From: Ianthella basta
Taxonomy: Eukaryota > Porifera > Demospongiae > Verongiida > Ianthellidae
Length of the DNA stretch: 64,000 nt
Direction: 5' to 3'
Assembly (NCBI GenBank): GCA_964019415.1
Contig: OZ025870.1
Span: 10,233,733-10,297,732, forward strand
Translations under genes and position numbers: made by a program
The notes under the pieces: model-generated
Told to the model about the DNA's origin: nothing
The model's database searches: none
What the model saw: the letters and a program-made list of their open reading frames with translations, nothing else
Part shown: positions 4,016 to 60,597 of the stretch, piece after piece
Numbering within the stretch: the first letter of the stretch is position 1
How the letters are laid out: every line of letters begins with the position of its first letter

Positions 4016-12657
<8,642 letters not shown>

Positions 12658-15560: not shown

Positions 15561-16270
15561 ATGCGCCAAAAGCAACTTTCATATATTCTTCTAGGCATAC
15601 CCTGCCTTAGTAAGAAGAGCAGTTGTAGAATGCATCTAGTAATTGTTTGTTCATTAACACCTGCTGCAGCGACGAAGTGACACTTTATTGCCTGTTCCCT
15701 TCTCCCCTCTTCCCTTCCACCTCCATCCAGCACTCTCTGTAGCTACTAAGCCATGTGTGTTGAGTTTCCACACGGTAAGCAGAAAGAACGCACTGTGTTC
15801 ACAGGTCTCCCGCCTGACAAGAGTGCTACAGTTTTTGATACCGCCACAGGACAGAAACTGATTTGCATCTGCAACAAAACTGCAACCCCCTCTCCAGTGC
15901 ATTGGTTAGATAGGAATGGCAAGGTGCTTCCCAAACTAAAGAAGGCAGTCTACACAGGCTGGATCACAAGCTTAAGAGGAAGAAGTCATGGATAGCTGTT
16001 CAACTCCGCATCAAGATCGGATTTTCTTGTGTGGAGGCAGGAGTGCATACATGTGTTATTGGAGAAAGTAGGAGCGTATTGGTAACTCCAGTAGGTATGT
16101 AACAGACATGGTTGCAATTGCTTTGATAGGAGACCCACACACACTGTAGTGCCAGCTTCACATGAAATATGCCCATTAGGTGTCTTTCTTCCCGGCAGGT
16201 GTAGAATGTCCTTCTGTCTCGCCTTCCCCAACTGTGTCTCCCAGCTCCAGCAGCAGCAAGACCATTAACA
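15561..16270 (+). pseudogene. Signal peptide - Ig module A (broken)
   Basis: Three exons like those of the intact module at 19644: 15561-15609 (MRQKQLSYILLGIPCL), 15731-16094 (Ig domain) and 16199-16270 (Ser/Pro linker). Splice sites are present, although the first donor has changed to A|GTAAG. The Ig exon has lost 4 bases near 15772 and 2 bases near 15951 against copies B and D, and carries an in-frame TAG near 15993, so it cannot make the full domain. It lies upstream of module B, which is intact and nearer to the peptidase core. Confidence 0.7.
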
Positions 16271-18892: not shown

Positions 18893-19377
18893 CATCAAGA
18901 AGAAAGTGTGCGCAGATGAGGTCTTCCAGGACAGGTTGGAGATCATCAGCAATCTTTAGGTAGCTTAGCTTTGATGCCTTGAACCAACGATGGTTTCGTA
19001 GAAAGAAGTGGACATACAACTGCTGGGATGCTTCTAAGAGTGTTTGTGGTGGTGGTAGCAGTGTGGAAAGGGGGGTGGGGTACTTCAATGGCACTAGCAC
19101 GTATAAAGCTAAGCTTTGTGTACTTCATTTACACGATGCATGTGATACGGAATCATACTGCTCTACACCCTACCTACCTTGTAGGTCGGAGAAGTTGCGA
19201 AGAAGCGATAGAGTACAAGCTCGAGTTGTGCGCATTCTGCAAGACGTGATCCAGAGTAGTAATGAAGTTACTCAGGTAATAGGGCACATTGGGACTGCCT
19301 GAAGCCTTCTGCATGCTTGGGGAGTCGTACAGCTCGTCATCACTGAGTGGCTCAGAACCTGCTTCTACGGCCGCCAT
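18893..19377 (-). pseudogene. FAN1-like nuclease 5' fragment B (exons 1-2)
   Basis: Exon 1 is 19377 down to 19178 and exon 2 is 19033 down to 18893. Exon 2 reads cleanly (EASQQLYVHFFLRNHRWF, SKLSYLKIADDLQPVLEDL). Exon 1 is 11 bases shorter than in fragments A and C, which shifts the frame after NAHNSSL. As in the other units, no later FAN1 exons are seen on the minus strand. The ATG lies 266 bases from the ATG of Ig module B on the other strand. Confidence 0.75.
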
Positions 19378-19643: not shown

Positions 19644-20361
19644 ATGCGCCAAGGGCAACTTTCATTTATTCTTCTATGCTTACTCTGCCTTGGTAAGAAG
19701 AGCAGTTGTAGAATGCGTGTAGTAATTGTTTGTTCGTTACCGCCTGCTGCAGCGACGAAGTGACACTTTATCGCCTGTTCTCTTCTATTCTCTTCCCTCC
19801 CACCTCCATCCAGCACTCTCCGTAGCTACTAAGCCATGTGTGTTGAGTTTTCACGCGGCTGGTAAGCAGAAACAACGCGCTGTGTTCACAGCTCTCCCGT
19901 ATGGCGAGAGTGCTACAGTTTTGGATACCGCCACGGGAAAGAAACTGATTTGCGTCTGCAATGAAACTACAACCCCCTCTCAAGTACATTGGTTAGATAG
20001 GAATGACAAGGTGCTTCCCAAACTAAAGAAGGCGGTCTACTACAGGTTGGATCGCAAGCTTAAGAGGAAGAAGTCATGGACAGCTGTTCAACTCCGAATC
20101 AGGAACGGGTTTTCTTGTGCGGAGGCAGGAGTGTATACATGTGTTATTGGAGAAAGTAGAAGGAGCGTATTGGTTACTCCAGTAGGTATGTAGCGGGCAT
20201 GGTTGCAATTGCTTTGATAGGAGACCCACACACACTGTAGTGCCAGCTTCACATGAAATATTCCCATTAGGTGTCTTTCTTCCCTGCAGGTGTAGAATGT
20301 CCTTCTGTCTCGCCTTCCCCAACTGTGTCTCCCAGCTCCAGCATCAGCAAGACCATCAGTA
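19644..20361 (+). CDS. Signal peptide - Ig domain - Ser/Pro linker exons (module B), probable 5' end of peptidase copy 2
   Basis: Exon 1, 19644-19692, encodes MRQGQLSFILLCLLCLG, a good signal-peptide core. Exon 2, 19814-20185, encodes one Ig domain: Cys in LICVCNE, Trp in VHWLDRN, and the F-strand EAGVYTC. Exon 3, 20290-20361, encodes VECPSVSPSPTVSPSSS. All introns are phase 1, typical of extracellular modules. The last exon ends one base into a codon, and core exon A of the peptidase (22520) starts with the other two bases, so splicing gives an open frame of about 1,199 residues. The linker resembles the start of exon A (SSPSVSPSPSLFP). The Ig module could instead be a separate short gene ending in an exon near 20431, but that end is not conserved. 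The 2.2-kb intron would contain a LINE fragment. Confidence 0.65.
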
Positions 20362-20754
20362 GTGAGTGTATGAGGATGAATGCCTACAAGAATTGACTGT
20401 GTATGCGTGTCACTGCTTTTGCTGGCAGCTGGTGAGGATGGCAATTTTCTATTGTTATCATTATGAATTGCATCACTAGAACTTCCTTTTTGGCCATGAG
20501 GAATAATGTATAACCAGCTCCAGGCTGTCTTTAGTGCGGCTAGATAGAGATTCATATAGTGACTGCAGAGTTGCTGACTTGTAGACTTAATTTCATTTCA
20601 TTGTCAATCCTGTCTGGGAATGATCATGATCGTCAATACTATAAATGGTGTCAGTGCAAGGAAGTTGTACATGTATAATTGTTACATTGCTTGCCTTCGA
20701 CCATCTGTCAGTTTACTAGTGTATAAAACTTCATTTAGAATTAAAAGGGATTAC

Positions 20755-21716
20755 ACATTCTGCTTATCTAGCATCAGCTGTGGGTTGTACACATCTTGTC
20801 CAGCAGATCTTACCCCAAAGGCTGAACTCCTCATTCCCAGCAGCCACAGAGGCATTGGAAGTCTGGCAACAGGGCCACAAAGAACCAGCTCCATGTGCCC
20901 CTGACTGTTCTCATCAGAGGGCTTGGGATGGCCCCTTGGTGACAACAGCAGCAAAAGCCCTTGTGAGGAATGCTCCTGATGAGTTAGCTCATGCTCGTCT
21001 GCTGGCATCTCAGAGGAGGGAGTCGGGTGAATGGCTACAGGCACCTCCAATGACTGCTATTTTTGAATGGAAGATGAGGTGCTTCGGGTGGCAGTGGGGC
21101 TCTACCTTGGGGGTGGCCATTTGCAGACTCCACAAATATCATCAGTGCAGCACTGAAGTGGACTATTTGTGTTTGCATGACCTTAGCTGTAGGATAAGTC
21201 AGGGTCGGTATTCAAGACACACAGCAGTGAATGATGTTCTCAAAGATCATTGGCCTCAGCAAGGATCCCTCTCTCCTGGAAGCCACGGCCATTGCTTGCT
21301 CTGACGGAAGGAGGCCAGATGCGATCTCGGTGATGCCTTGGTCGGACACCAGTATGGGATGCCATGTGCCTAGACACATTCACTCCTTCCCATGTGGCCT
21401 TCGCTGTAAGGGAAGCAGGGTTGGTGGCTTGCCAAGCCGAAAAGGCAAAACCCCAGTAGTACACCTTTTTGGGTTCCAGTCACCATTTTGTTCCTTTCGC
21501 CATTGAAACATCAGGGCCAGGTGTTTGGGCCAGAGGCCATGTCCTTCATCAAGGAGCTGGGTCGCAGGATCAGAGCTGAGACGGGGAGCCACGCTCACTG
21601 CAGTTTTTGATTCAGGGAATTGCGATGGCGGTCCAGCGGGGCAACACGGCAGTGATGAGGGGTACCTTTCCCCCATCAGACAATGTTTACATTTGATTAT
21701 TTGCAATCGTCAATAG
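20755..21716 (+). mobile_element. Decayed RT LINE fragment, copy 2 (5' truncated)
   Basis: Corresponds to the right two-thirds of the 1840-3401 fragment, starting at the ASAxGCxHLVQQILPQRL stretch (20780) and ending FIKELGRRI...RAE (21550-21600). It holds the C-terminal part only and has several frame changes. It lies between Ig module B and peptidase core 2, in the same direction. Confidence 0.65.
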
Positions 21717-22519
21717 TAGTGCAGTGGTTTAGGCACTGCCCATTTTCAGTACTAGTAATTAGTAATTTTATTATAATACAATACTTATAATAATTATTAT
21801 ATGCAGGCTTTAACTTGACCCTTTATGCACAGTTTAAATATATGAATAAATGCATAATTGTTGAAATTTTGTAAACAGAGATAAGTGTGAACAGAAAATT
21901 ATAGGAAATATTTTTTACTACTTCTATCCTAAAAACAATTATATTGTTCATGCAAATATTTAGTGATCATTTGCAGTTATTTTTGTACATGTAACAGAGT
22001 GGCAGCCTGTACAAAGTTCTACAATATGTACATCATAGCGCAAGCAGCTGCAATTGACCCATTGTTTGGGCAGCTGCTTAAAACAATATATTTCTGCAGA
22101 CAGCGGAAGACCTAAGGATCAAAATGTTCTGTCATTTTAATGAAGTGACTGCTGTGTTTGCATAATATAAAACATTCTATACAGTAGTACTTTTATATAC
22201 GTTAAGTATACATATTCTCCTTCTGTCTCTGTATATACATGCCTTTAAATTCTCCCACCGTATATATTCCTAACTCTACTCAATATCTATCTGTTTCTCC
22301 CCTCCCTCCATTGAAACCTTCCTCCCTCCCATGCATCCCTTCTTACCTCCCTCCTTCCTCTCTCCCTTCTCCACTTCCTTAATCCGGCCCTTCCTCCACT
22401 TAACTTCTCTCCACCCTCATTCCCTCTCTCTCTCACACATTCACTCGGATTCCACATTTCTCCCTCTTTGCCCTTTTCTGATCTCTACTTCCTTACTTCT
22501 CTTTCTTTTTCACTCTTAG
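21717..22519. other. Intron remainder before core exon A, copy 2
   Basis: No gene is seen. It ends in the same C/T-rich tract found before cores 1 and 3 and the acceptor CACTCTTAG at 22519. Confidence 0.6.
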
Positions 22520-25500
22520 CCAGTATTAGCCTTTCTACAGCTGTTTCCTCCCCATCTGTTTCTCCGTCACCCTCACTGTTTCCACCAGGAATAGAAGAAC
22601 GGTGCAAAAATGATGCTGAAGTTTGCAAAGGCACAAACAATGCCTTCCAGTACCGAGTCATCACTCTACCCAATGCTTTGAGAGTGCTGCTCATCTCCAA
22701 CAACAAGACATCCACGGCAGCAGCTGCTATGGACGTCCGCTCCGGCACCTTCCAAGACACCATACCTGGGTTGGCTCACTTATGTGCAAACATGCTCTTT
22801 CGTGGAACTCAAAAGTACCCAGCTGAGGATGCCTACTCTCAGTTTTTGACAGCAAACGGTGGTGTTAGAGATGCATACACTGATTCTGAAAACACCAATT
22901 ATTTCTTTTCTGTGAATAGTGACAAATTGGAGGAAGCTCTGGATCAATTTGCACAGTTCTTCATTGGTCCACTGTTTAATGAAGATGCATTAAACCGTGA
23001 AATTAATGCCGTTAACTCGGGGTTTGAGTTACTTAGAGGAGTTCCCTTCTGGCGCACCAACCTATTATTAAAGGATGTTGCTGACCCAAGGAGCAAGTTT
23101 TCAAGGTAATGTTAACATTATTGTTCCTTCTGATGAGTATTGCTTCTTATAAGACTGGTAGCTACTATATATAGCTATGTAGCCATACCAGGAGAGCCTG
23201 CACAGTCATATACGTAGTATAGATTATGTACATTTGTGATGTGTACTATAATTATGTATGACATGAATTTGTATACTTATCTGCATATTAGACAGCACTG
23301 CATAGTGTGATTAAATGCATATTATATATGTGTACACACATTGGTAAAACAAGTGTGTAAGTGTGGTAATGTTTAGCTATTGTAAACCAGGGTAATTTCA
23401 TCACTAGGGTAGTTCCATCAGTATGGTTTAATCTCAACTCTTCTTCCTTTGTGGTGGGCTTTTAGCTCAGCACAACACCGCTATTTTGCAACCTGTCTAC
23501 AACACTCTCTTGATAAGTAGTGACTGTGTGGACTCACATGATGGAGATAATGTGGTAGAGGCTCATGCTACGTTGTCTAGCAGGTTTATGAGGCGTTGAT
23601 GAGCATTCACGTAGCTAAAAAGGAAAGTTCAAGTAAAACGTTTCGACCACGAGGGTCTTCATCAGTTACAAAAAACATTTTTGTTTTTTGTTTTTGTAAC
23701 TGATGAAGACCCTCGTGGTCGAAACGTTTTACTTGAACTTTCCTTTTTAGCTACGTGAATGCTCATCAACGCCTCATAAACCTCACATGATGGAATTATC
23801 CTGCATGGTTTGAAATAGTGATGGTATTACCCCAGTTTACCTTTAATTACCAGTAATGTGAGCATGCATGCATTGTGTGCTCACATGACTGTACAGGTTA
23901 AGATAATTATAGGTTTCTATTGTAATTATGGCCTGGTGCACACTGGTTCTCATCATGAGGACCGTAGGAATATATTGTGAGATTGTTCTGTATTGTTACT
24001 TGAAAGGTTCAACATTGGTAACACTGCCACACTCGCTGTTCCTGGGATTCGGCAGCAAGTCATAGAATACTACCAGAAAAGATACTCTGCCAATATTGTG
24101 AGTGTCCCATTGTCACATAAATGTGAACTACATTGTAGATGATATAGCCAGATGATAACCGGTAGAATATTAATGGAACAAATAATAATTATACTATATA
24201 TTGCAAACGTGAACATCATTGTGATTATTGTAATTGGCCTTAATTGTTCCCATCACTGAGATCGCATTGCCCCATTGTATGGCGATGAAGATCCTCTGGA
24301 AGAGGATTTCAACATAAGGTGGGTCCCCCTGTTTACAATTTCAAGCGATGCCTCGGTTCACGAAGGAGCTTGAGTGCCACCGGGCCACAGACACCTGCTG
24401 TTTCTATATGGCCACAGGTACCAAATGATGACTTGCTTTAAGCTCTGCATACTTTGCCTGCTTCCTTTGCTCTGCCATAGCTGCAACTGCACTTGCCGCT
24501 CTGATGGCCAATGAGGTTGGGGAGGAGGCATACATGTTAGGATAGGTCGTAATTTCTATTTCCATACAGGATGCAATACAGGAGGCAATGTGGTCCCTGT
24601 GATGGGAACAATTAAGGACAAATTCCAATAATATAGTAGTCTAAAATGCCCTAGCTGTAATCTGTTGATTGAATGACACACTTCTAGTGCATATCTGTTC
24701 CCCATTGTTTCATATTCTAATGTATATACAAAAGTATATATCTAGTTGTAGAAATATCTAGTTGTCCATGGTAGTTACAACATGCATGGGCAAGGGCTTA
24801 TGGCATGTGCTTTAGCAGTTACAGTAACTTAGGGCACTTCATGCACAAAATAACTAGATGAATGCAAGGCATTGTGGGGGCGAGCGGGAAGTTTATTTTG
24901 TTTTTGTCCTCAATGGTTTTATTTTTTATTATTATCAAGAACATACATGCACACATGCATACAATTACAATCAGGATTTAGTTAGAAATTAGTTGTAGCG
25001 CATGCTGTCATAATAATATTGCCAGCGGGCAGATGGGTGGGGTCTGGGTATGACGGAGACTACAGCTGATTTCAGAATGGTTGGCTAAAATGGCAAATGG
25101 CAGAACGGCCAAATGGCATGACATCACTAGTAGTTTTGCTGCTTGCTATTACGTCACGCCTATTGTTCAGTATTGCCATTTGCTGTGACATCACATCATT
25201 TGCCATTTGCCATGTTGGCCAGTCATTCTGAAATTAACTGTACATCTGAACAGCCAGGAACTGGCAGCTGCGGTGTGCTAAATATTGCCCAATTCCATAA
25301 TATAGCCAGCAAAAGTAAGAGAACTTAACTATCAAAGCAACAGTACACCTCCAACCTGGCCCATACAGTCCTTGTATGGCTAATCCGGCCAGTTCACCTT
25401 CACTATCTTGACAGTCACCTGTCCAGCAGAAGAGTACACTAAAAGCTGGCACCAGAGACAGCGTAATTGCACCAGCGCAAGAGACAAAAGTACCCCGTCA

Positions 25501-28500
25501 CAGAGGCGGCTGTAGCAAGCAAGCTTAAGAGACCTTAACTACCTACCAACCAGAGACTGCGTAATAGCAATTGCGCAGGAGTCAAAAGTAGCCCGTCACA
25601 GAGGCGGCTGTAGCAAGCAAGCGTAAGAGACCTTACTTACTTACCAAAGATGGTAAACTATTGCGCAAACGCGCAACAACCCCCAAACTATTGCGCAATG
25701 CAGCGAATGTTCCATATAAGGTAAAGTATTGCGCAACCGCGACGTACCAAGACTATTGTGCAACCGCGACGTACCAAAAACTATTGCGCAACCGCGATGT
25801 ACCAAACTTCCGGTTTTCGCACCACCCAGATGAGAGGGGCTTCGCTTCGCTCGCCCCAATTATACTATGCCTTCAGGAAATGTCATATAATTTTATTTTG
25901 TATGCTATTACACTGTTGTATGTATGTCCTTATATACCATGCCTGTGATATTATAATGCATTATGAGAGCTGCATGCAAATTAAAGCCATAATGATACTT
26001 TATGTATAGATAATGATACTATATAGACTAATGCCATGAACCTTTTAACCATCCTGTATTACTAAGTGCCTAGCAACCATTACTAGCAACTTATATGCCC
26101 AAACTATAATAGATGCAGCTAGTCATCTATGGAAAGGAGGATGGTGAGCATCTTGAGGAATGGGCAAGAGAGATATTCTCTAACATCTCCAATAAAGGCA
26201 TCCAACCTCCCCAGCCTCCAAGGCAACCCTTCCCCGCTGGTTACAAGGCAAGGCTGATTGTCTACAAACCACTGACTCCCACTCCCCAGCTCAGAATTAT
26301 ATGGCAGACACCGAGCAGGCAGGACCTGTACAGGTACACAGGATATGGCCTGCATATACAGAGAGCGCATGCTGGCTGGTTGGTTCTAATTGGATATCAA
26401 TGTGTCTCTGCTTCTCTCTATCTCTCTCTCCTCTGTCACTCCATTCTTCATACACACACATGCACACACACACTGCACACACACTGCACACACACATGCA
26501 CACACACACGCACACGCACACGCACACACACACACACATGCACCTTTGAATTTCTTCAGGTTCAGAGTAATGGAGTTTATCTCACAGCTCCTCAACCATG
26601 CAGGAAAGGGGAGTCTCTCTCACTACCTCAAGAACACTCACTCCTGGGCTACTTCCATAATATTCTATCAACCACATAGCACTAGCGGTTTTGCACTCTT
26701 CTTCATTGACATTGACCTGACAGACGCTGGTGTTGCTCATGTGGAGGATGTGGTTACAGGAGTGTTTGGGTACATTGCAATGCTGAAGGACAGTGAGGAT
26801 GATGAGTTGAATGCAGTGTGGGAGGGGCTGAAGGCACTGGACCAGATAAAGTTTGACTATGCACCGCCACCTTCTGGCATTGCATTAACCATCAGGTGAG
26901 CTTCGTGCATGTGTACACATAAGTCCAATCAATCAATAGTATGGATTAAATAAAAAATTCCATATATAGGAATGTGCACAATGTCTTTTTTCCACACAAC
27001 ATTGTGAAGTGCATGTTAAAATTTGCTTCATGCTGTCTGCATTTCTTCATTCGCCTTCTGTATGATCAGTTTCCTCAATCTTTTCATTCAATCAATCAAT
27101 CAATCAATGATCATGAAGGATACATATCTCCAGTTTCTGGAGGTCATCCCTAAAACAATTGCAAGCTGTCTTAAGGCAACATATATCAGTCTGAACATAC
27201 CAGTACATAAATCACTTATATATAAAATTATCACTCCATCTCATCCTTGGTCTACCTCTTGGCCTTCTTCCTTCCATCTCTCCTACATACACCTTCTTTG
27301 TCACTCTGTCGCTGCTCATCTCATTCAATTTGCCCTTCCAATTTTCCTGCTTTCTCCTTATCTGATTCACATCTAATACACTTTCCTGCCCAAGATGCGG
27401 TCTAATGTGTTCACTCCTTATTCTCTCCATTCTACTTACTCTTTGTACTCTTCTTAAAACATTCATTTGCGTTGCCTGCACTTTCGACTGCTGCTGCTTT
27501 GTCAAGCTCCATGCCTCACACCCATACAACAAAGATGGCATTATTGTGGCATTGACTACTTTCAACTTTGTGCCCTTACTTAACTCTCTCCTCCTCAATA
27601 CTGCCTCACTCATTCCTCCAATCATTCTCGTGGCACTCCCAATTCTTGCCTCCATTTCCTTCTGCATCCTACCATCACTACTTAACATCACCCCCAAATA
27701 TTTCATTTCATCTACCTGCTCAATAGCCTGGTCACCAACTCTCACTTCACAGTCACCTGTCTCCCTTGCTACCTTCATCACTTTTTCTTCCTCCAATTTA
27801 CCTTCTAACCATTGCCTCACTCAGTACCTGCAAATTGCTCTGCAGCCCCTCTTCCGACTCTGCCATCAACACCATGCCATCTGCATAGAGTAGCACTCCC
27901 ACCTCACCTGTAGACAGCTTCACCTCTCTCACAAACCCTCCTCTTGCTTCCCTTGTCACCTTATTTACAAATACATTGAACAACCATGGTGATAGTGTGC
28001 AGCCTTGTCTCACACCCCTATTCACCCCAAACCACTCTGACTCTCTATCTCCAATCCTCACACTTGCCTTCCCACCCTCATACAGCGGCTGAATTGCTAG
28101 TAATAATCTTCCCTCGACACCATATTCTTCCAGCACTCTCCATAGCTTTTCCCTATTCACTTTATCATACGCCTTCTCTAAATCTACAAATGCATATACA
28201 CCACCTTGTCCTTTTCAATGGTCTTCTCTATAATCTGCCTCACTGTAAAGATCTGATCATTATAGCCCCAACCAGCCCTAAACTGTCCTTGCTCATCCAT
28301 TACTTTTTCTGCCATTATCAACTTCACCCTGTCATTGAGCACTCCTGCATACACCTTACCAACCACACTCAAAAGGCTTATCCCTCTGTAATCCGAGCAT
28401 TCCAGCCTACTACCCTTCTTGAAGATGGGGATGATCTGTGCTTTTCTCTAGTCTGCTGGGGCCACACCGACTCTCCATACCATATTGAATAACAATACCA

Positions 28501-31500
28501 ACCATTTCATTACCACTTCTCCTCCGGCTTTTAACATCTCTGGCAACACCCCACACCCCAGGTGCCTTCCTCAACTTTAACTTCTTTACTCCCTTTCTCA
28601 CCTCCTCCAACGTTATTTCTCTCAGTCTGTCATCAACTGTTACTACCTCACTATGTCCTGGCCAGACCCTTCCTCAACCCCAAACAGCCCCTTAAAATGC
28701 TCCTTCCATCTCTCAATAACATCCGCCTCATCAACCAAAACCTGGCCATTCTCATTGCGGATGTGGTTCATGCTGTCCTTAGACCTCTGCTATTGACTCT
28801 GGCCCAAAATCTCCGTGGGTTGGCACTCACATCCTTCTCCATTTATCGTCCAAACTGAACCCATTCCTCATTCTTAGCTCTTCTCACCACCCTATTTGCC
28901 TCTATCTTTGCCTCCTTGTATTTCTCCTTAGCTTCTTCAGTGCCTAAGCTCAGTAACCTTCTGTACAGAGCTTTTTTCGCCTCACTGCAACCTTCACCTC
29001 ATCATTCCACCACCTTGTATGTTTCTCACTCCCTTTTCTCCCCTTAACTACTCCACATACATTCCTGGCTGTCCCTACAATACATTCTTTCATCTCTTTC
29101 CACGCCAATTCAATATCTCCCTCCATCCAATACCTCTTCACCTTATGCACCTCATACAGTTCACCCAATCTCTCCTGATATTCTCTCCTCACTTCATACT
29201 CCTTCATCTTGTCAATTTTAATTCGCTGTCTTCCCTTTCTATCCACACGTAAACCCCTTCTCTCCACCTTCAACTTAAGCTTCAACAACACCAGGTAGTA
29301 ATCACTCCCCATCTCTGCCCCTCTCACAACCCTTACATTGACCACCTGCTTCCTAAACTCCTTACCAATCAGGAAGTAATCAATAAGTGACCTGAGACCC
29401 CTTCCTCTACATTCCCATGTGGACAAGTGTATTCTCTTATGAGGGAACCATGTGTTGGCAATCAGTAGGTTGTGTTCACTACTAAACCGTAGCAACCTGC
29501 TCCCATTCTCATTGCATAACTGTTCACCGTGCCTCCCAAGGACCTCCCCCCCAAATGTCTGTCTCACTGCCCACCCTGGCACTCAGATCCCCCATCACAA
29601 TCAGCCGGTCCCTTCGTGCTACTCCCCCAACAGTGTTTTGCAACTTTGCATAGAACTCATCTTTAACATCCTGGCTTCTATCTTCTGTTGGTGAATATAC
29701 CTGTATCAGACTCACCCAGACACCCTCTACTTTCAACTGAACCAGCACAATGTTTTCATTAATACACCTCCACTCCTTCAAAAAGGCTCCAAAACTCATC
29801 GATAAGAGAATCGCCACCCCTCCTTTCGCCCTTCCTTCCTGCACACCAGAATACACACACACTACATCTCCAATCTGCTTCACTCCGTTTCCCTGCACCT
29901 TTGTTTCGCTCACTCCTAATACCTCCAGTAGATACTTCTTTATTTCAGCAACCAGTTCCTCTTCCTTGCCGTTCATTGACCTCACATATCATATTATCTA
30001 CTCTCTTAGAATCATTTCGCTCCTTCTCATTATTCCCCATCCTCCCCCGTTGCTGACCGGCTGTCTTCGACAAAGACCGAGTACTGCGCTCAATCCGCCA
30101 TTTTCAATCACCAGATTTCTTTTCATTCTTTGCTTAAATTACTGCACTTTGGTCATACTCCGTACTCACTTCTCTTTCCACCAGTGACCTAGCAGCAACA
30201 ATGCGGACAGTCAAGGACCCCGCAGACATTCTCTCTCCTCCCCAGCGATCTATATGGAACATCACACAAGTCAGAAGTTTCCTCAGTTACCTCACACCGG
30301 ACAATAGCAACATAGGTTTTGCAAAACCTGGTCTTTTATACAGCAACGAGACAATGCCACCAAGTATCCATGGCAACTGCACCCAACCGGGAACAGCCCA
30401 GCACAACTTCAACGTGTCCACAGCTGATTTATATGAGCCCTACTATGGCACTCTGTATGCTCTGTATTGCACTGACCCAGAGCTAATCAAGAAGTGGGAA
30501 GATCCTGACATTCCCAAGGGCACTTTCATCTTGCCTGATTTTCAAAGTTATGCACCTCACAACCTCACCCTTCTACCCCTGCCGGAGGATCATAGCAAAA
30601 CACCTCATTTGGTACATGATGATCTAAATGGTAAGTGCACATCTAGAAATTTATGTATAATTATACGCATGACATCGACAATATTATATAGGTATTGGCT
30701 GAACTGTAATTGTACAATTGCCAGTGTTTCAGCTACACCTGAAACATTCAGTAGTTCCATTTAATAGATTACAGACTTTTTACAGAACATAAGAAACAAT
30801 AATACAGTGGAACATGTCTAAGATGGTCACTGGCAACCACCTCTCTAAAACAGCAATGCAGCCTCCCTGGCCCCAAATAGCACTATATATTGTAATCTAC
30901 GTACCTCTGTAGAGCAACCACCTCTCTATAAAGGTCAGCTAGAACTGTCATAGACAGGCTCCACTGTATTGCATGCTCTTGATCAATTCTTGATGTGCCT
31001 ACAATTATCTTTTTACATTGCCAGCTTTGTAGCTTGTAATTTAAAGTTTGTTATGCCTGCACACTTTTACTCACATCTCCTCTCAAGGCTACCGAGTGTG
31101 GTGGATGCAGGACTACCAGTTCAGAGACCCTGTTGTGATTGTCAAGTGTCAGGCATACACAGGAGCAGTGGCAGCGACAGTGAAGGACCAAGGTGTGTGT
31201 GTGTGGACAATAGAGGTATTGTATGCAATGCACACTTGCTTTATTGCATACCATTACATTACCAGTTATGTGCAATATGTGTTATTTGAAAGGCGGGTAG
31301 TTCTCCAGCTTGATCAAACAGGGTTTTGAAACATCAGCAAGGTTTCAGACCATCTGGTCGAAACATCTGCAAGGTTTCAGAGCATCTGGTGGAAACATCT
31401 GTAAGGTTTCAGAGCATCTGGTGGAAACATTGGTAAGATTTCAGAGCATCTGGTCGAAATGTTGTCAATGTTTCAAAACCTTGTTAGTTCAAGCTGGTAT

Positions 31501-34500
31501 TTAGAGAACTAACCCCCTTTCTCATGTCAGCTGAGAAGCCCTCACTTTAATATGAGATAATATTTCTCCATTTAAACCAGTTATAATTGCTGGTGAACAA
31601 AAACTATATAATTGCTTTCAATGCAATTATACAAAAGTGTGCTTTGACATTCAAGCAAGTTACACTCAACAGCTAGATACACAAGGCACATTTGAACAAA
31701 CTAAAGAGAAGTGAAAGTTGTTTGTGCAGCCTCAGAACTACTATGGATCCCAAGATAAGATTCCAAGTAGCCCCCACCCACCCCACCCTATCCTTTCACT
31801 CCACTACTACTTGTCCCTTCTGATTGCATTTGCAATACATAATGCTATAATTATGTTTTGTGTATGTTTGTTGTCCTCTCCTGCAGCCCTGTCCCTCGTG
31901 TTTGTCAACTATGTGAATGAACTACTGAATGAAGTGACTGATGTAGCCTCAGCTGCATCATATCTGGTGCACTTTGACCTCTTGCCAAGTGGCCTCACCC
32001 TTCAGTTCTCTGGTTACAGTGACCCAGAAGTGTTAATGAGATTCATGAAGGAGGTGCTGAGTGGTAAGAGATTGAAATGCTATTTCTATAGTATTAGTGC
32101 ATGGCTTTAAATGACATGCTACTGTTATATATATACTGGAGCCCAACGTAAATGATCATTGTAAAGTGTATACGCATGACTTGTGCATAAATTTACAGTA
32201 TTTGAAGTTCACCACACTTGTATGCTTAATACAGCACTATTGCATCTAACTGTTTATGCAGAGGTATCTGATAGATCAGCTGCATCCTTCAGAGTCAATA
32301 TAGACACCCTAGGACTAGCTTACCAACGAGTGGTGAACAATTTGATGGACAACCTGACCTCTACACTACCCTTCAGATATGCAGAAGAACTAACAAGGTG
32401 AGATTCTGAACATGAATTCTGTGCACTGCCACTTCTGAAAGTGTATGGATCGTTTTACTCTCGCATATCTTTACATTAAAGCTAGCAACAAGTCAACCAG
32501 TGTGCCAGCATATATGATTCTGCATGAGAGAGAATTTGACAAAACTTGCTGCTACTTCTTTGTTTTCTCTCTTTAGACTGATGCTGCTGGACCCACGTTA
32601 TTCACACACAGAGTTGTTGGCGGTACTGGACAACGTCACTGTGGACAATTTACCAACTGCTTTGGCTCATTATATGGATGATGTCATAGTTTCCATTTCC
32701 AGGCTGGAGTGCTATGTAACTGGGAATGTGGACCGAGATGGGGTGAGCAATATAAATACATGTCTCCTCTGATTATACGTCTAACTATATGTAGAAATTA
32801 TAGATATAGTTATACATAAATTATTTTGAAGAAGAATATTATAATATATATTTCTTATGCGCTCACTGTACTGTGCACCTACATGGCCTTTCTTCCTATT
32901 TTACTTCAACGTACCTCTCTCTTCTTAGCCTTAGTACATACATATTTCCTTTTTAAAAATTATGGCTTTGCATGGAAATATTTTTGTTTGCACTGAATTA
33001 AGAAATACATCCATACAAAATACCATTAGACATGAGAAGCTGGATTAATACAAATATAGATCTCGTTGCCATGGTAACGGGCCTCTAAACGATGGTTCTA
33101 AATCTCTGAGAAGCATTCCAACTGCATTGTGTGTGATTCTAAATCCCATAATCGTACGTTGCACAGAGTGGAGGGGGTTATAAATCCCATTATAACTATC
33201 TGCAGGAACTCTGTGGGGGCAATTACATCGTAATATAACATCATTCACGCGTACGCCGTCAAGAAGTGAGAGGAAGGCGAAATGTTTGGGTAAGCGAACA
33301 GATTTGAATCTATATCACTTAAATGGCGACCAATCGGTGTCTCTACGCGATTTAGACCACTCAGCATCTGGGCGCTTTGCACCCTCAAGCTTCGTGCTCT
33401 AAATCATGTAGACACTTCTTGGTGGCCATTTAACTATTACGTGTTGCCTTGTTTCTAGCACGGAAATAATCTTGTGTGTGACAGTGTGTTCAGCTATGCA
33501 ACATCTGCATTCATTAGTATAATTATTGAATATGCTGCTCTTTTACTTGCCCTCAGGCCATCGATTACTCTGGAGCAATCCATGAGACATTGCTGCAGAA
33601 CTCCACTTCTGAAGTGAGTCAAGAGGAGGGAGTGAGGGTGGTCAAAATGAAGCAAGGCACCAGAGCACTTGTAACAAGGACTCTCAATCCAGAGGTGGAT
33701 GACAACTCAGCCATCATGGTGGTGAAAGAAGTACGTAAGCATGTAGTTTATCATAGAGTCTGTCTATATGTAGCTAATACATATCATGCTAGTGCAGTGA
33801 TGAACCAGATTTGCTATATGTGGTAGAATTTGTGAAAAGGGTCCACTCGAGGCAACTTGCAAATTTGAGTTAAGCACATAGTGTAAAAGTGCATTCGATG
33901 AGCTTCCTATTGCACTTTACTGCACTTCGCTAGCATGTTCCGTTACCGAGATATACGTGCGTGCTGCAAGTTTGGAATTACGAGTAGTCTGATCTCAAGA
34001 AAACGGCATTCAAACATTTACTTCCGGCAAAACCTCAACATTCCGCATTCTACCATGTTACAAATGATGTCACCACAAAATGACGGATCTGGACAATCAT
34101 GTTACGCAGGTTTTGGCTTCCCAATCATCTCTGAGTATTGCAGACTCTTCTTGGCTGGGCACCACATGATGATTGTAAATGTGTATATACATTAAACACC
34201 ATACCTATATAGATGTGTGTACATATAGATGTGCAGTCCTTTAAGTTCCCTAGCCACCCATTTCTTACTTCAATCTGCCACTCATAAGCCCCACACCCAT
34301 GCATCTACTTTCTCGGATAACTTTCTTAATTCACTCCTTCTTACCCCACTATAAATTACTCAATGAACATCCTTTCCTTCCTCCAGTCTCTTTTTTCACC
34401 TGTTCATCCTCCTCCAGTATACTTTTCACTTCCCTTCTGTATGTAGGTTGGTCCCTTGTGTGATGTTATCACTGACCCTAAAGATGGCTCCCCTGTGACC

Positions 34501-34653
34501 TGTAGTGAGGAGTCTCTGAAGAACACAGTGTACTCTAACGTACTAAACCTGATTATGTCGGTAAGTGAGGACACATGGGACTATGGGGTTAAGGACATAC
34601 ACACACACGCGCGCGCGCACACGCACACGCACACGCACACACACATGCACATG

Positions 34654-34721
<68 letters not shown>

Positions 34722-35912
34722 TGCAAGCACACATGCACACACATATATGCAAGCACATGTACATGCACAAGCACGCAATTTCATGATGTACAGTGAATGC
34801 TATAGAAAAGGCTACTCACACCATATCGCATATATGTACACATTGTACCCCTGCTCTAATATGTCCTCTTAGCCAAAACGTCGATTCCAATCGGTAGGAA
34901 TCATAGAGATCTACCCCACAGCACTTCAACCAGACTTAAGATTGGCTATGTAACACATCAGAATGTATGAATCACTTTTAAACTAATACGATTGGCTGGG
35001 TTATTCATCACTATGGAGTTAGTAATGTATACCTTTGAACTCTCATTCGCTTGGTCTGTATAGTTCGTAGCAACATTGTGTGACATGAGCACATATTAAG
35101 TAAGATGGCCTGGCAGACAAGTTCGCTGACAGAAGACAATTCCACTGCACGCAGCCTGCATGGACTGTTCTATAAATACTAGCGCCTCATCTGTGCAAAA
35201 TAAAAATAGCACAAATGCAATCATTTGTGTGGGTGCATCCTGCTCCTACCTCATTTGTTTTTCTTTCTTTATGTGCTCCTAATGTGTATAATGATAATTA
35301 TTCTAATAATAATTATCACATCACAATGAATGTTCCTGCATGTCCATTTTTCTGTAGAATGCCTGCTTTAATACACTTAGGACGCAGGAGCAACTGGGAC
35401 ATGCAGTTTCGTGCGGCACCTTTACACTTGAAAATTTGGTAACCACCCTATTCTTTCTAGTTCAAAGCTCCTTCAGAGGTCCTCTTTACCTTCTTGATCG
35501 TATCAACAACTTCACTGTCACCTATCTTATGTCTGAGCTAAGCAGTGGATTTTTTGAGCAAGGTTTGGAAGCGTACAAGGTTCTATTAAAAGCAGAGGAC
35601 AAAAATCTTCAAGAACAGGTGAATAGACTGTGGATACAAATTCACAATCAGCATTACAAATTCAATCGCAGAGAGGTCCTGCAGAATATAACTGAGCGTG
35701 TCACCTATGCACAATTTGTTGACTTCTACAAAGCATACCTTCTGGGAAATTTGAACAATGGAGGCCAGACAAGTATTAAGGAGCTGCTTATTGGCACTTT
35801 TAGTGCTAGGGTTGCCAATGTTACCTTTGATGTACCTCGGCAGGTAGAAGAACAAGACCAGTACGAGTCAGTGAGAGAGTTCAAGGAGTCAGCCGTGTAC
35901 TGGGATCAGTAG
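22520..35912 (+). CDS. Insulysin-like M16A pseudoprotease, copy 2 (zinc site lost)
   Basis: Exons: 22520-23105, 24007-24097, 26113-26333, 26560-26895, 30185-30630, 31088-31192, 31887-32063, 32262-32397, 32577-32742, 33557-33730, 34447-34560, 35358-35912 (TAG). Every exon has the same length as in copy 1 except the tenth (one codon fewer), and no stop or frameshift is seen. The fold-defining text is kept (SRQDLYRY, VEDVVTGVFGYIAML, TLRTQEQLG). The catalytic set is not: HFCEH is HLCAN (22777-22791), the third zinc ligand Glu is Gly (23020-23022), and the Tyr equivalent to human Y831 is His (35400-35402). A protein with a full frame and no zinc site is expected to be inactive as a peptidase. It may bind peptides or pair with copy 1, since IDE-type enzymes form dimers; this is inference. 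The gene probably starts at Ig module B (19644). Confidence 0.88.
23380..23843. mobile_element. MITE-like element in intron A/B, copy 2 (interrupted)
   Basis: Same element as 4899-5140, with ends TGTAAACCAGGGTAAT and CCCAGTTTACCTT. A younger hairpin element sits inside it at 23546-23781. Confidence 0.6.
23546..23781. mobile_element. Near-perfect hairpin element with 13-base target duplication
   Basis: Arms of about 95 bases (AGGTTTATGAGGCGTTGATG ... and its complement) meet at a short loop around 23680. The flanks CTCACATGATGGA (23533-23545 and 23782-23794) are a direct repeat, and copies 1 and 3 lack the insert. Each arm contains CTGATGAAGACC...GGTCGAAACG on one strand. The high arm identity points to a recent insertion. 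Confidence 0.8.
24239..24618 (-). mobile_element. TIR-bounded element with an RT-associated domain remnant, copy 2
   Basis: Paralogous to 5532-5912. On the minus strand it reads MEIEITTYPNMYASSP, then AVAAMAEQRKQAKYAEL and LVPVAI, the clearest version of this domain remnant. The ends CCTTAATTGTTCCCATCACT and its complement are inverted. Confidence 0.6.
24857..25857. mobile_element. One-kilobase insertion private to copy 2, with tandem repeats
   Basis: Copies 1 and 3 lack this segment. It includes a palindromic stretch built on CAAATGGCA/TGCCATTTG (about 25075-25215), two copies of an about 95-base unit with CAGAGGCGGCTGTAGCAAGC (25460-25650), and about four units of CTATTGCGCAACCGCGACGTA (25660-25806). 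It ends in GC-rich GGGGCTTCGCTTCGCTCGCC. No coding frame is convincing; family unknown. Confidence 0.6.
26456..26540. repeat. Interrupted (CA)n tract beside exon D acceptor, copy 2
   Basis: CA units broken by TG and CG steps, ending about 20 bases before the acceptor at 26559. It is shorter than in copies 1 and 3. Confidence 0.9.
27090..30117 (-). mobile_element. RTE-like LINE inserted in intron D/E of copy 2
   Basis: The minus strand encodes an AP-type endonuclease (about 29985-29400; SETKVQGNGV, QVYSPTEDRS, VMGDLSARVG), then a reverse transcriptase (about 28610-27800; GVRQGCTLSPWLFNVF, LLYADGMVLMAES), then a C-terminal part with YGCEAWSLT and GRRPRGRPRMRW. It ends in a GATT-type tail at 27090-27107. 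The flanks TCTTTTCATTC at 27079-27089 and 30118-30128 are an 11-base target duplication, and copies 1 and 3 have the empty site. About five frame changes break the ORF, and the usual YADD is YADG. RTE clade is the best fit; a related AP-endonuclease clade is possible. Confidence 0.85.
30805..30966. mobile_element. MITE with CAGTGGAAC ends, copy 2
   Basis: Same locus as 8061-8244, flanked by TA, with small internal losses including the GGCCCACAAGTGG segment. Confidence 0.65.
31320..31485. repeat. Minisatellite of about 32-base units in intron F/G, copy 2
   Basis: Four to five units built on AAACATCTGCAAGGTTTCAG and AGCATCTGGT. Copies 1 and 3 have about one unit at the matching place (8580-8605; 56140-56175), so the array grew in copy 2. 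Confidence 0.8.
33056..33440. mobile_element. Relative of the 9212-9600 element, in intron I/J of copy 2
   Basis: Shares TTGCCATGGTAACGGGCCTC, the TCTAAATCTCTGAGAAGCAT segment and the AAATGGCGACCAATCGG hairpin with 9212-9600, but sits in a different intron, so the two are separate insertions. Confidence 0.65.
33826..34165. mobile_element. Insertion private to copy 2 intron J/K, family unknown
   Basis: About 340 bases between GGTAGAATTTGTG and CTTGGCTGGGCACC have no counterpart in copies 1 or 3. No coding frame or inverted ends are clear. Limits are approximate. Confidence 0.45.
34602..34722. repeat. CA/CG-rich microsatellite, intron K/L copy 2
   Basis: Begins CACACACGCGCGCGCAC and continues as pure CA, just after the donor at 34561. 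It is the counterpart of 11384-11470. Confidence 0.9.
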
Positions 35913-36680
35913 TACAGTTAATGTTGAATGTAGCGCTGCATTAAACACAAGAAATAATACTAGCTGGAGAACTATAGCATAGTCTGTAGTCTGACTTTCA
36001 GCTTTATTAATAACTCTTTGTGCAGTTGTAGTTAGTTATGCACACCATATAAAGGGGCATTATACATAGTATTGTGCTTTATAGCTATATAGGCCAAGGC
36101 CATACGATTCTGATTATTGCTGAACACACTTGGAATTGTGTATTCTGCATGCTTGGCGCATTAACCATGAAAGACCATTGATCAATACATATTATATGCA
36201 TCAGATCTGTTAACTGTATAAGCACGTAGTTGTTCCTTTAATTATAAGCTTTTATAGACACATGCTCTTCACCCTCTGGAGTGCATAATTTCCGGAAAAA
36301 CTACGGAGATGAACAATTAAAGAATATGGATTATAGTCCAAGTACCACTTTACTAGATCAGTGAGGGTGGGTCGTTGAGCAGCAATGCCTCAATACCAGC
36401 CCCTCCAAGTGTTTACAGAGTCAGACTCGGACGACAACTAGGACGAAGATGACTCCTTTGTGTTGGACTACTTGTCTAGACGACCAAAAAGACTTTGCCA
36501 TTGTTCTAAGAAATGGCTCATTCACAAGTGTGTCCATGGTGCTACACACCCTGCCATGATACAGAGAATGTCCCTGTGTTGCCACTGTTGTTTGGAAGCC
36601 TTTAAAGGAGACTGGCCCACGAGTAATTTGCATTCCATATAAAGTAGAGAAACAAGGGTGTGTAAATATGATTCCTCCAA
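35913..36680. other. Copy 2 3' flank and an unexplained block with a short acidic ORF
   Basis: 35913-36250 matches the flanks of copies 1 and 3. From about 36250 a block shared only with 60170-60590 begins. It contains an ATG at 36385 followed by MPQYQPLQVFTESDSDDN and then TAG; the same stop occurs in the other copy (ATG 60291). It may be a remnant of a transposase or host exon. I do not recognise it. Confidence 0.4.
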
Positions 36681-37965: not shown

Positions 37966-38154
37966 CTTGTTTTTGGAGGAAACATTTATACACACCCTTT
38001 GTTCCTGAAATTTTAATCCATACATCCAGGGTGTGTTGATGGTTGCTTAGCACAAGTTTATGGCTAGGCACTAGCACGTATAAAGCTAAGCTTTGTGTAC
38101 TTCATATACAGGATGCATGTGATACGGAAACATACTGCTCTACACCCTACCTAC

Positions 38155-38365
38155 CTTGTAAGTCAGAGAAATTGCGAAAAAGCAATAGCATTTCCTCTGC
38201 GAACAAGCTCGAGTTGTGCACATTCTGTAAGACGTAATTCAAAATAGTAATGAAGTTACGCAGGGAATAGGGCACAGTGGGACTGCTCGAAGTCTTCCGC
38301 TTGCTTGGGGAGTTGTACAGCTCACCATCACTGAGTGGCTCAGAACCTACTTCTACGGCCGCCAT
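38155..38365 (-). pseudogene. FAN1-like 5' fragment C (exon 1 only)
   Basis: The exon (38365 down to 38155) is open and the same length as in fragment A: MAAVEVGSEPLSDGELYNSP, then VPYSLRNFITILNYVLQNV and LLLFRNFSDLQ, with a donor at 38154. The exon-2 region is missing, replaced by the sequence of the 18000 to 18300-type repeat, so this is an orphan first exon. TGACGTCA lies at 38371-38378, directly before the start codon. Confidence 0.7.
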
Positions 38366-42776: not shown

Positions 42777-43491
42777 ATGCGCCAAAGGCAACTTTCATTT
42801 ATTCTTCTATGCTTACCCTGCCTTGGTAAGAACAGCAGTTATAGAATAGTTGTTTGTTCGTTACCGCCTGCTGCAGCGACCGAGCGACACTTTATCGCCT
42901 GTTCCCTTCTCCCCTCTTCCCTTCCACCTCCATCCAGCACTCTCTGTAGCTACTAAGCCATGTGTGTTGAGTTTCCACGCGGCTGCTAAGCAGAAACAAC
43001 GCGCTGTGTTCACAGCTCTCCCGTATGACGAGAGTGCTACAGTTTTCGGTACCGCCACGGGAAAGAAACTGATTTGCGTCTGCAACGAAACTACAACCAC
43101 CTCTCAAGTGCATTGGTTAGATAGGAATGGCAAGGTGCTTCCCAAACTAAAGAAGGCGGTCTACTACAGGTTGGATCGCAAGCTTAAGAGGAAGAAGTCA
43201 TGGACAGCTGTTCAACTCCGAATCAGGAACGGGTTTTCTTGTGTGGAGGCAGGAGTGTATACATGTGTTATTGGAGAAAGTAGAAGGAGCGTATTGGTAA
43301 CTCCAGTAGGTATGTGACGGACATGGTTACAATTGCTTTGATATTGGAGACCCACACACACTGTAGTGCCAGCTGCACATGAAATATATATGCCCATTTG
43401 GTGACTTTCTTCCCTGCAGGTGTAGAATGTCCTTCTGTTTCGCCTTCCCCAACTGTGTATCCCAGCTCCAGCATCAGCAAGACCATCAGCA
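42777..43491 (+). CDS. Signal peptide - Ig domain - Ser/Pro linker exons (module D), probable 5' end of peptidase copy 3
   Basis: Exons 42777-42825, 42938-43309 and 43420-43491 have exactly the lengths found in module B (49, 372 and 72 bases), with GT-AG ends, phase 1 throughout and no stop. The Ig exon keeps Cys (LICVCNE), Trp (VHWLDRN) and EAGVYTC. The linker reads VECPSVSPSPTVYPSSS. The next phase-matched exon downstream on the + strand is core exon A of copy 3 at 51730, about 8.2 kb away across repeats. This would give a secreted Ig-M16 protein of about 1,200 residues. The long intron makes this link less sure than for copy 2. Confidence 0.55.
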
Positions 43492-51729: not shown

Positions 51730-54276
51730 CCAGTATTAGCCTTTCTGCAGCTGTTTCCTCCCCATCTGTTTCTCCGTCACCCTCACTGTTTCCCAAAGTA
51801 ATAGAAGAACGGTGCAAAAATGATGCTGAAGTTTGCAAAGGCACAAACAATGCCTTCCAGTACCGAGTCATCACTCTACCCAATGCTTTGAGAGTGCTGC
51901 TCATTTCCAACAATAAGGCATCCACAGCAGCAGCTGCAATGGACGTCCGCTCTGGCACCTTCCAAGACACCATACCTGGGTTGGCTCACTTATGTGCAAA
52001 CATGCTCTTTCGTGGAACTCAAAAGTACCCAGCCGAGGATGCCTACTCTCAGTTTTTGACAGCAAATGGTGGTTTTCAATTTAGATTGACTGATTCTGAA
52101 AACACCAACTATTACTTTTCTGTGAATAGTGATAAATTGGAGGAAGCTCTGGATCGATTTGCACAGTTCTTCATTGGTCCACTGTTTAATGAAGATGCAT
52201 TAAACCGTGAGATTAATGCCATTAACTCGCAGTTTGAGTTACTCAGAGGAGCTTCCTTCTGGCGCACTAACCTATTATTAAAGGATGTTGCTGACCCAAG
52301 GAGCAAGTTTTCAAGGTAATGTTAACATTATTGGGATTGTTCCTTCTGATCATGATGAGTATTGCTTCTTATAAGACTGGTAGCTACTATAGCTATGTAG
52401 CCATACCAGGAGAGCCTGCACAGTCATATACGTAGTATAGATTATGTACATTTGTGATGTGTGCTATAATTTCGTATGACATTAATTGCATACTTATCTG
52501 CACATTAGACAGCACTGCATGGTGTAATAAGATGAATATTATGTGTACACACATTGGTAAAACAAGTGTGTAAGTGTGGTAATGTTTAGCTATTGGTATA
52601 AGGTAAACCGGTGTAATTTTGTCACTATAGGGTAGTTCCATCAGTATGGTCTAATTTCAACTCTTCTTCCTTAGTGGTGGGCTTTTAGCTCAGCACAACA
52701 CCGCTATTTTGCAACCTGTCTACAACACTCTCTAAACATAAGCAGGAGTGAATGTGCTTATTCTTGATAAGTAGTAACTGTGTATACTCACATGATCGAA
52801 TTATCCCGTTTTGAAATAGTGACGGTATTACCCCAGTTAACTTGTAATTATACGAGTAATGTGAGCATGCATGCATTGTGTGCTCACATGACTGTACACA
52901 TTAAGATAATTATAGGTTTGTATTATAATTATGGCCTGGTGCACACTGGTTCTGATCATGAGGACCGTAGGAATAATATTGTGAGATTGTTCTGTATTGT
53001 TCCATGAAAGGTTTGACATTGGTAACACTGCCACACTCGCTGTTCCAGGGATTCGGCAGCAAGTCATAGAATACTACCAGAAAAGATACTCTGCCAATAT
53101 TGTGAGTGTCCCATTGTCGCATAAATGTGAACTACATTGTAGATGGTATAACTAGACAATTACAGGTAGAATATTAATGGAACATAATAATTATACTATC
53201 TATTGCAAACATGAACGTCATTGTGATTGTTGCAATTGGCCTTAATTGTTCCCATCACTGAGACTGCATTGCCTCACTGTATGGCAACAAAGATCCTCTG
53301 GCAGAGGATTTCAACAGAAGGTGGCTCCTCCTGTTTACAATTTCCCGCGATGCCCTGGTTCATGAAGGAACTTGAGTGCCACCGGGCCACAGACAACTGT
53401 TGTTTCTAATGCCACAGTTACCAAATGATGACTTGCTTCAAGCTCTGCATACTTCGCTTGCTTCCTTTGCTCTGCCATAGCTGAAACTGCACTTGCCGCT
53501 CTGATGGCCAGCGTGGTTGGGAAGGAGGCATACATGTCAGGACAGGTCATAATTTCTATTTCCGTACAGATGGACAATGTGGTCCCAGTGATGGGAACAA
53601 TTAGGACAAATTCCAGTAATAAAGGAGTCTGAAATGCCCAAGCTGTAATCTGCTTAGTGATGACACACTTCTAGTGCATATCTGTTCCCCATTGTTTCAT
53701 AATGTATTTTGTATAATGTATTATCTTATTATCTTAAATTCAATGATATTATAATGTATTATGAGAGCTGCATGCAAATTAAAGCCATAATAATACTATA
53801 TAGACCTGTGCCATGACCTTTGAACCATCCTGTATTACTAAGCAGTCGACTAGCGACCATTATAATTACTAGCAACTTATATGCCCAAACTATAATAGAT
53901 GCAGCTAGTCATCTATGGGAGAGAGGATGTTGAGCAGCTTGAGGTATGGGCAAGAGAGATATTCTCTAACATCTCCAATAAAGGCATCCAACCTACCCAG
54001 CCTCCAAGGCAACCCTTCCCCGCTGGTTACAAGGCAAGGCTGATTGTCTACAAACCACTGACTCCCACTCACCAGCTCAGAATCTTATGGCAGACAACGA
54101 GCAGGCAGGACCTGTACAGGTACACAGGAAATATATGGCCTGCATATACAGAGAGCTAGCGACGAGAGCGCATGCTGGCTGGTTGGTTCTAATTTGATAT
54201 CAATGTATCTCTGCTTCTCTCTATCTCTCTCTGTCACTCCATTCTTCATACACACACATGCACACACACACTGCAT

Positions 54277-54355
<79 letters not shown>

Positions 54356-59791: not shown

Positions 59792-60597
59792 GATCAGTAG
59801 TACAGTTAATGTTGAATGTAGCGCTGCATTTAACACAAAAGAAAAATACTAGCTGTAGAACTTTAACATAGTCTGTAGTCTGACCTTCAGCTTCATTGAT
59901 AACTCTTTGTGCAGTTGTAGTTAGTTATGCACACCATATGAAGGGACATTATACGTAGTGTTGTGCTTTATAGCTATATAGGCCAAGGACATACTGTGTG
60001 ATGCTGATTATAGCTGAATAGTATGGTGGATATACTTGCAATTGTGTATTCTGCATGCTTGACGCATTAACCAAGAAAGACAATTGATCAATATATATTA
60101 TATGCATCAGATCTGTTAACTGTATAAGCGTGTAGTTGTTCCTTTTAATTATAAGTTTTTATAGACAAATGCTCTCGCTCTCCGGAGTGCATAATTTCCG
60201 GAAAAACTACGGAGATGAACAATTAAAGAATATCGATTATAGTCCAAGTACCATTTTACTAGATCAGTGAGGGTGGGTCGTTGAGCAGCAATGCCTCAAT
60301 ACCAGCCCCTCCAAGTGTTTACAGAGTCAGACTCGGACGACGACTAGGACGAAGATGACTCCTTTGTGTTGAACTACTCTTCTAGACGACCAAAAAGACT
60401 TTGCCATTGTTCTAAGAATTAAATGGCTCATTCACAAGTGTGTCCATGGTGCTACACACCCTGCTATGATTCAGAGAATGTCCCTGTGTTGCCACTGTTG
60501 TTTGGAAGCCTTTAAAGGAGACTGGCCCATGAGTAATTTGCATTCCATATAAAGTAGAGAAACAAGGGTGTGTAAATATGTTTCCTCCAAAAACAAG
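59792..60597. other. Copy 3 3' flank and the unexplained acidic-ORF block
   Basis: Matches 35913-36680 throughout, including the ATG (60291) and conserved early TAG of the MPQYQPLQVF block. The ATTAAA present after copies 1 and 2 is changed here (ATTTAA). Confidence 0.5.

Follow-up and report, generated by a model that had tools for sequence, protein, structure and literature searches.

A gene that probably encodes a secreted, catalytically dead relative of the insulin-degrading enzyme (IDE), with an immunoglobulin (Ig) domain at its N-terminus, occupies positions 19644–35912 of a 64,000-nucleotide stretch of the Ianthella basta genome (C3:10233733–10297732, hereafter the window; the genome comprises 209 Mb in 96 contigs). 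The gene, c2, is a member of a tandem family, and its product is predicted to be an IDE-type (M16A) protein that would bind without cleaving; we assign this reading, made from sequence, a probability of roughly 0.6.

In the sequence model c2 has 15 exons and 14 introns, all GT-AG, and the frame is open from the ATG at 19644 to the TAG at 35912 (3,600 bases including the stop; 1,199 amino acids). The first-pass annotation had given this same open frame, exon lengths of 49, 372 and 72 bases for signal peptide, Ig domain and linker, a phase 1 linker end at 20361 and a phase 1 start of the first M16 exon (exon A) at 22520, all of which were reproduced; the 3,600-base total requires that exon C start at 26113 and not at 26119. 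The exons are:

19644..19692, plus strand: exon 1, ATG and signal peptide (MRQGQLSFILLCLLCL..); 49 bases, open frame, GT donor, strongest hydrophobic segment
19814..20185, plus strand: exon 2, Ig-like domain, phase 1-1; 372 bases
20290..20361, plus strand: exon 3, Ser/Pro linker, phase 1-1; 72 bases
22520..23105, plus strand: exon A, Ser/Pro stretch and start of M16 domain 1; HLCAN replaces HFCEH, third zinc ligand changed from E to G
24007..24097, plus strand: exon B
26113..26333, plus strand: exon C
26560..26895, plus strand: exon D, IDE exosite region
30185..30630, plus strand: exon E
31088..31192, plus strand: exon F
31887..32063, plus strand: exon G
32262..32397, plus strand: exon H, covering IDE residues 668–673
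32577..32742, plus strand: exon I
33557..33730, plus strand: exon J
34447..34560, plus strand: exon K
35358..35912, plus strand: exon L with the stop; R824 kept, Y831 changed to H

The Ser/Pro text PSVSPSP, noticed earlier as common to the linker exon and exon A, was found in both. Exon A lacks a credible start of its own, again as first proposed: 69 open codons upstream contain no in-frame ATG, and the first methionine, codon 70, lies inside the core. Only the signal peptide is strongly hydrophobic (mean 2.29, as against 1.46 for the next segment); neither a further membrane helix nor a type II anchor with stalk was found by hydropathy. On hydropathy only, the product thus has the layout of a secreted protein, and it carries 14 N-glycosylation sequons.

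Peptidase M16 matches number 22 genome-wide, and 16 of them fall within C3:10.238–10.567 Mb. This array was read over 200 kb of the C3 region and its left side, plus shorter stretches. Among the nine plus-strand Ig-M16 cores that were read, eight (c1, c2, c3, c4, c5, c6, c7 and cend) have the full order of signal peptide, Ig, linker and 12 core exons, with the same splice sites and phases; the ninth, c5b, is excluded from the counts and tests on the eight copies. In c5 and c7 the exon A acceptor is the same, with an additional 87 in-frame bases of Ser/Pro text. Five of the eight (c1, c2, c4, c6 and cend) are open from end to end. Co-duplication of the trio and the core, in phase, together with the signal peptide and the sequons, argues for the original suggestion that one gene makes a secreted Ig-M16 protein.

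The c2 core scored above the Pfam cut-off for four M16 families (PF00675, PF05193, PF16187 and PF22456; E values 4e-14 to 2e-38) and matched human IDE with an E value of about 1e-103; its four M16 domains, in a single chain of about 1,000 amino acids, mark it as an M16A insulysin by descent. The residues required for activity are a different matter. The zinc ligands of human IDE are H108, H112 and E189 and its catalytic base is E111, according to the relevant sections of PMC10604886, and an R/Y pair of domain 4 is described in part of PMC12731061. At H108/E111/H112/E189 the c2 protein reads H/A/N/G, so that neither HxxEH nor the downstream Glu ligand is present (HLCAN...G), and of the R/Y pair R is kept and Y831 reads H; on these grounds the term peptidase in the first-pass annotation is not supported for c2, for which peptidase activity appears very unlikely.

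The motif, third ligand and R/Y pair read HFCEH/E/RY in c1, HLCAN/G/RH in c2, HLCAN/Q/RH in c3, NLFVN/Q/RN in c4, NFCTN/Q/RH in c5 and c7, NFCTN/Q/RN in c6 and HLFVS/Q/RH in cend. Taken in the order c1, c2, c3, c4, c5, c6, c7, cend, the residues are HHHNNNNH at H108, EAAVTTTV at E111, HNNNNNNS at H112, EGQQQQQQ at E189 and YHHNHNHH at Y831; R824 is kept in all eight. One copy, c1, looks catalytic, with HxxEH and the Glu, and in the other seven the catalytic Glu, the zinc ligands and the tyrosine of the R/Y pair are lost.

Replacement of the catalytic residues is repeated and varied among the copies. Diversity at H108/E111/H112/E189 is 0.58 against 0.11 in the core, a value reached by 1 of 996 circular shifts, and the ratio of nonsynonymous to synonymous changes (N:S) at these four codons is 16:0 against 442:217 elsewhere (Fisher P 0.002). 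A prior set of 34 residues was drawn from the literature, including exosite residues (PMC8836115 and PMC3280214), residues 668–673 and 821–830 (PMC5910022) and F820 and R824 (PMC4580987), each from portions of these papers; H332 was added for the N:S counts, making 35. Among six residue sets compared by circular shifts only the catalytic set and the combined one stand out, the combined 34 residues being moderately more diverse than the core (16 of 996 shifts), and N:S in all 35 residues is 40:6 against 442:217 in the rest (P 0.005). Pairwise ratios of nonsynonymous to synonymous substitution rates (dN/dS) for the cores range from 0.32 to 1.12, with 26 of the 28 values under 1. The tree of the eight cores has 758 substitution events, among which 1 stop occurs where about 29 are expected (P ~7e-12, simple neutral model), and no frame-breaking indels were found in these cores. 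Loss of catalytic residues in a constrained frame, the pattern of a pseudopeptidase, is thus found on the eight copies with c5b left out.

The origin of the secreted form may be read from paralogs in the same array. A gene starting about 0.5 kb behind cend (L003) has a first exon that specifies a tail and a membrane helix, followed by a long Ser/Pro stalk and the beginning of a core with HFCEH; it was read to exon F only, and exons G–L did not turn up in the DNA behind it, which is interrupted by a run of N. A second gene for a type II membrane M16 protein, L001, lies on the minus strand at 10.55 Mb; it shares the exon layout of the core and retains both HFCEH and the third Glu. R and Y are kept in the nearest downstream exon L on that strand, which was attributed to L001 from its place in the exon order, exon K not being seen. 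The L001 core is 71% identical to that of c1. A third candidate place for a membrane M16 gene, at 10.567 Mb, was scored in genome searches and read in part only. In a public protein set, P0031 (1,166 amino acids) likewise possesses a tail, a membrane helix, a Ser/Pro/Thr stalk and HFCEH. The contrast with cytosolic IDE drawn by the first-pass annotation missed these nearer relatives, two array paralogs and P0031, which are type II membrane proteins.

When the first exon of L003 was aligned to the DNA behind the Ig-M16 genes, homology ended at one point in six of seven places. This shared break falls at query base 745–747, about codon 46, where the membrane helix begins; in the seventh place, behind c1, the match ends earlier. 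Two of these relicts of a type II membrane-anchor exon lie in the window:

36385..36528, plus strand: relict behind c2; 48 codons matched, in-frame TAG
60291..60434, plus strand: relict behind c3; TAG and TAA

Homology to the L003 first exon resumes within exon A at base 1510, or at base 1353 in c5 and c7, which keep more of the stalk than the other copies. Because the anchor remnants break at one shared point in six of seven places, the membrane anchor of an M16 gene most likely gave way to a signal peptide–Ig cassette, and the Ser/Pro text on the exon A side is then most likely the old stalk.

As to the Ig module, a profile search of the PDB with the Ig exon returned 34 sequences at E values up to 1, among them an 'immunoglobulin-like domain protein' (E 0.0013) and neuregulin-1 (E 0.004) and including obscurin, FGFR1 and 2, neurotrimin, DSCAM and T-cell receptor chains, as well as one tail protein; nearly all of the 34 carry names of what we take to be Ig-domain-containing proteins. 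A Cys...Trp...YxC pattern is a mark of Ig domains, and these residues are invariant across 10 aligned relatives of the exon. The ratio of nonsynonymous to synonymous differences (pN/pS) in the Ig exon is 0.57 (seven copies, c7 left out). Pieces of the exon were matched 40 times genome-wide, where one exon may yield two pieces: 26 in the array, seven on C19 and seven on C1, C2, C11 and C21 together. Those on C19 are 42–44% identical to the c2 Ig exon, with the same phase 1-1 boundaries; downstream of them, in the same orientation, come FN3 domains (E 2e-6 and 5e-7), then a membrane segment and a tyrosine-containing tail, these parts being read as open stretches and not as gene models. C19 may be the source of the Ig cassette or a sister of it. 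The Ig/FN3/membrane cluster at C19:320001–338000 (L031, L032) has tails with YASV and YVTV, and may consist of signalling receptors.

Several observations weigh against a functional, non-cleaving Ig-M16 protein. With Pfam the Ig exon matched V-set at E 0.004 and 17.8 bits, under the gathering cut-off of 26, and AlphaFold2 gave it a predicted local distance difference test score of 34 with 10 close sequences. Part of the array is decaying, for c3 has a TGA three codons ahead of the usual stop, and c5 and c7 are put out of frame by insertions of 1 base in the signal-peptide exon and 5 bases in the Ig exon, respectively; c5b is a partial pseudogene, frame-broken, with several exons gone and no Ig trio, and two stops interrupt an exon L at 10412190. 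The stop test was restricted to the eight cores kept as gene-like, c5b being left out. Taken singly, the R/Y pair, exosite, 668–673 and 820–831 sets are not unusual (124, 128, 181 and 393 of 996 shifts), and N:S falls to 24:6 (P 0.16) without the catalytic four and to 21:6 (P 0.30) without Y831 as well. HLCAN is common to c2 and c3, although the tree of cores does not make them sisters; gene conversion between tandem copies is likely, and the copies are therefore not independent. Much of the amino acid excess could be explained by relaxed constraint after loss of catalysis. The idea that the chamber diversifies beyond the catalytic four was dropped because the excess loses significance once these are removed, and a contrast in pN/pS between chamber segments and the remainder (1.42 vs 0.49) was set aside, the segments having been chosen after the variable sites were seen.

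Some of these points also bear on the view that the array is a decaying paralog cluster in which catalysis was lost by relaxation and the Ig-M16 copies have no function. The broken c5, c7 and c5b, the two stops in the exon L at 10412190, the two pairwise dN/dS values above 1 and the lack of a significant excess at published chamber residues beyond the catalytic four would all fit it; the near absence of stops in the eight cores, the N/S per site of about 0.5–0.6 away from the chamber residues and the splice sites kept in eight copies do not, and we regard it as unlikely. A separation of the Ig trio and the M16 core into two genes, or a trio that also ends in the intron as a small secreted Ig protein, could account for the long gaps between linker and exon A (2.2 kb in c2, 8.2 kb in c3 and 11.3 kb in c4), for the extra Ig trios that lack a core and for the core that lacks a trio (c5b). 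Reading through the c2 linker donor meets a stop after 11 codons, which makes a short product possible, and c1 has one in-frame ATG 189 bases upstream of exon A, in a pyrimidine-rich stretch. Against this, the phase 1 donor of the linker and the phase 1 acceptor of exon A are kept in eight copies, the open stretch of exon A has no upstream in-frame ATG in seven of the eight, its first methionine being inside the core, and the anchor exon that formerly supplied the start of the core is broken off. Such a division into separate products is, in our estimate, unlikely.

The possibility that c2 has kept peptidase activity with an altered metal site is hardly credible. Its M16 match and the one retained His might be cited in favour, along with a modified motif, YFVEH, mentioned with low activity in a section of the review PMC12731061. 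In c2, however, replacements have removed the second His, both Glu residues (the catalytic one and the third ligand) and the tyrosine of the R/Y pair, and E111Q by itself leaves IDE almost inert, as reported in part of PMC10604886.

Several known systems can be compared with the predicted secreted Ig-M16 protein. Human IDE shares the four-domain M16 core (relatives at about 30% identity); c2 differs in adding the signal peptide, Ig domain and Ser/Pro linker and in having lost the catalytic residues. The type II membrane M16A proteins (L003, L001 and P0031) share the core and the Ser/Pro stalk, and the two paralogs also the core exon layout, but keep the anchor and HFCEH and show no Ig domain. 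Mitochondrial processing peptidase alpha, an M16B pseudopeptidase, resembles c2 in being an M16 fold without HxxEH; it is mitochondrial, about half the size and partners an active beta subunit, and no Ig domain is described for it in the available sections of PMC11266112. The C19 stretches share the related Ig exon with its boundaries, and differ in that FN3, a membrane helix and the Tyr-containing tail follow the Ig in place of M16.

Whole-protein searches with c2 returned 29 M16 proteins in one case and 1,646 in another. An Ig Pfam accession occurred in none of the 29, nor among the 120 listed of the 1,646, and the Ig-linker part (residues 20–215) had no relative at E 0.001 among 2,756 candidate proteins. 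This absence counts for little, because the search is biased towards proteins of similar length that share 5-residue words. Within the limited scope of these protein searches and of titles and abstract starts in the open-licence literature, no described Ig-M16 protein was found; the M16 fold, Ig domains and pseudopeptidases are each already known. One of the proteins encountered, P0030 (1,158 amino acids, predicted), has a second C-terminal M16 piece (LRTKEQLGY) preceding a whole M16 core, which is either a tandem fusion or an effect of gene calling.

The simplest history would be one cassette insertion between anchor and core, in which the signal peptide–Ig cassette entered exon 1 of a gene for a membrane M16 protein and removed the anchor, followed by amplification of the unit. 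The dead copies may then be secreted binders that enclose peptides in the M16 chamber without cutting them, as decoys or sinks, and they may also, or instead, associate with the membrane M16 enzymes and regulate them; docking to a partner would be the role of the Ig domain. IDE-type proteins enclose peptides, and one that is secreted and does not cut would lend itself to use as a peptide sink or receptor. Catalysis-deficient IDE mutants can still bind or trap substrate, according to portions of PMC8836115 and PMC10604886, and the trap idea arises because H108 mutants of IDE retain insulin binding (PMC8836115, in part) and E111Q is almost inert. IDE dimerises through contacts of its C-terminal halves, as set out in a section of PMC5910022, and a dead–live heterodimer is therefore possible. 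A peptide trap is slightly favoured over an enzyme regulator. With a catalytic-looking c1 and membrane paralogs beside dead copies, the two models are directly testable.

A single genome here offers a likely Ig source, membrane relatives and a breakpoint, and so a route from a membrane enzyme to a secreted Ig fusion, and the array illustrates loss of catalysis in copies whose frame remains constrained. A bolder scenario, which we consider distinctly improbable, is that one exon-shuffling event turned a membrane IDE-type ectoenzyme into tandem secreted, Ig-tagged peptide-capture receptors whose former catalytic site diversifies from copy to copy; the dead protease chamber would then be the basis of a recognition system, whether immune, self/non-self or for peptide signals.

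The window also contains the following members of the family:

4016..12657, plus strand: c1 M16 core, exons A–L; HFCEH...E and R/Y kept, with signal peptide, Ig and linker upstream of the window
15561..16265, plus strand: second signal peptide–Ig–linker copy, broken, upstream of c2
42777..43491, plus strand: c3 signal peptide, Ig and linker exons
51730..59800, plus strand: c3 M16 core, exons A–L; HLCAN...Q, early TGA

Outside the window, Ig/M16 places between C3:10300483–10345207 and 10419703–10463436 repeat with identical or nearly identical scores about 118–119 kb apart. This is either a recent segmental duplication or an assembly duplication, and the later places were neither read nor counted.

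Some repeated DNA accompanies the genes. A repeat with similar open reading frames was seen by eye ahead of exon A of each of the three copies within the window (2453–3400, 20780–21670 and 49701–50931) and is perhaps a mobile element predating the amplification. The intron ahead of exon E in c2 exceeds its c1 and c3 counterparts by about 3 kb, the extra DNA (27050–30130) resembling, by eye, a non-long-terminal-repeat retrotransposon on the minus strand. Matches to a 72-amino-acid fragment resembling FAN1 (FAN1_HTH, a weak match at E 0.024) lie on the minus strand just ahead of signal-peptide exons at 15062–15277, 19186–19377, 38150–38365, 42300–42503 and 62094–62282; all 19 genome matches to the fragment fall on C3:10.22–10.49 Mb, head to head with Ig modules, and it is probably a passenger of the inserted cassette.

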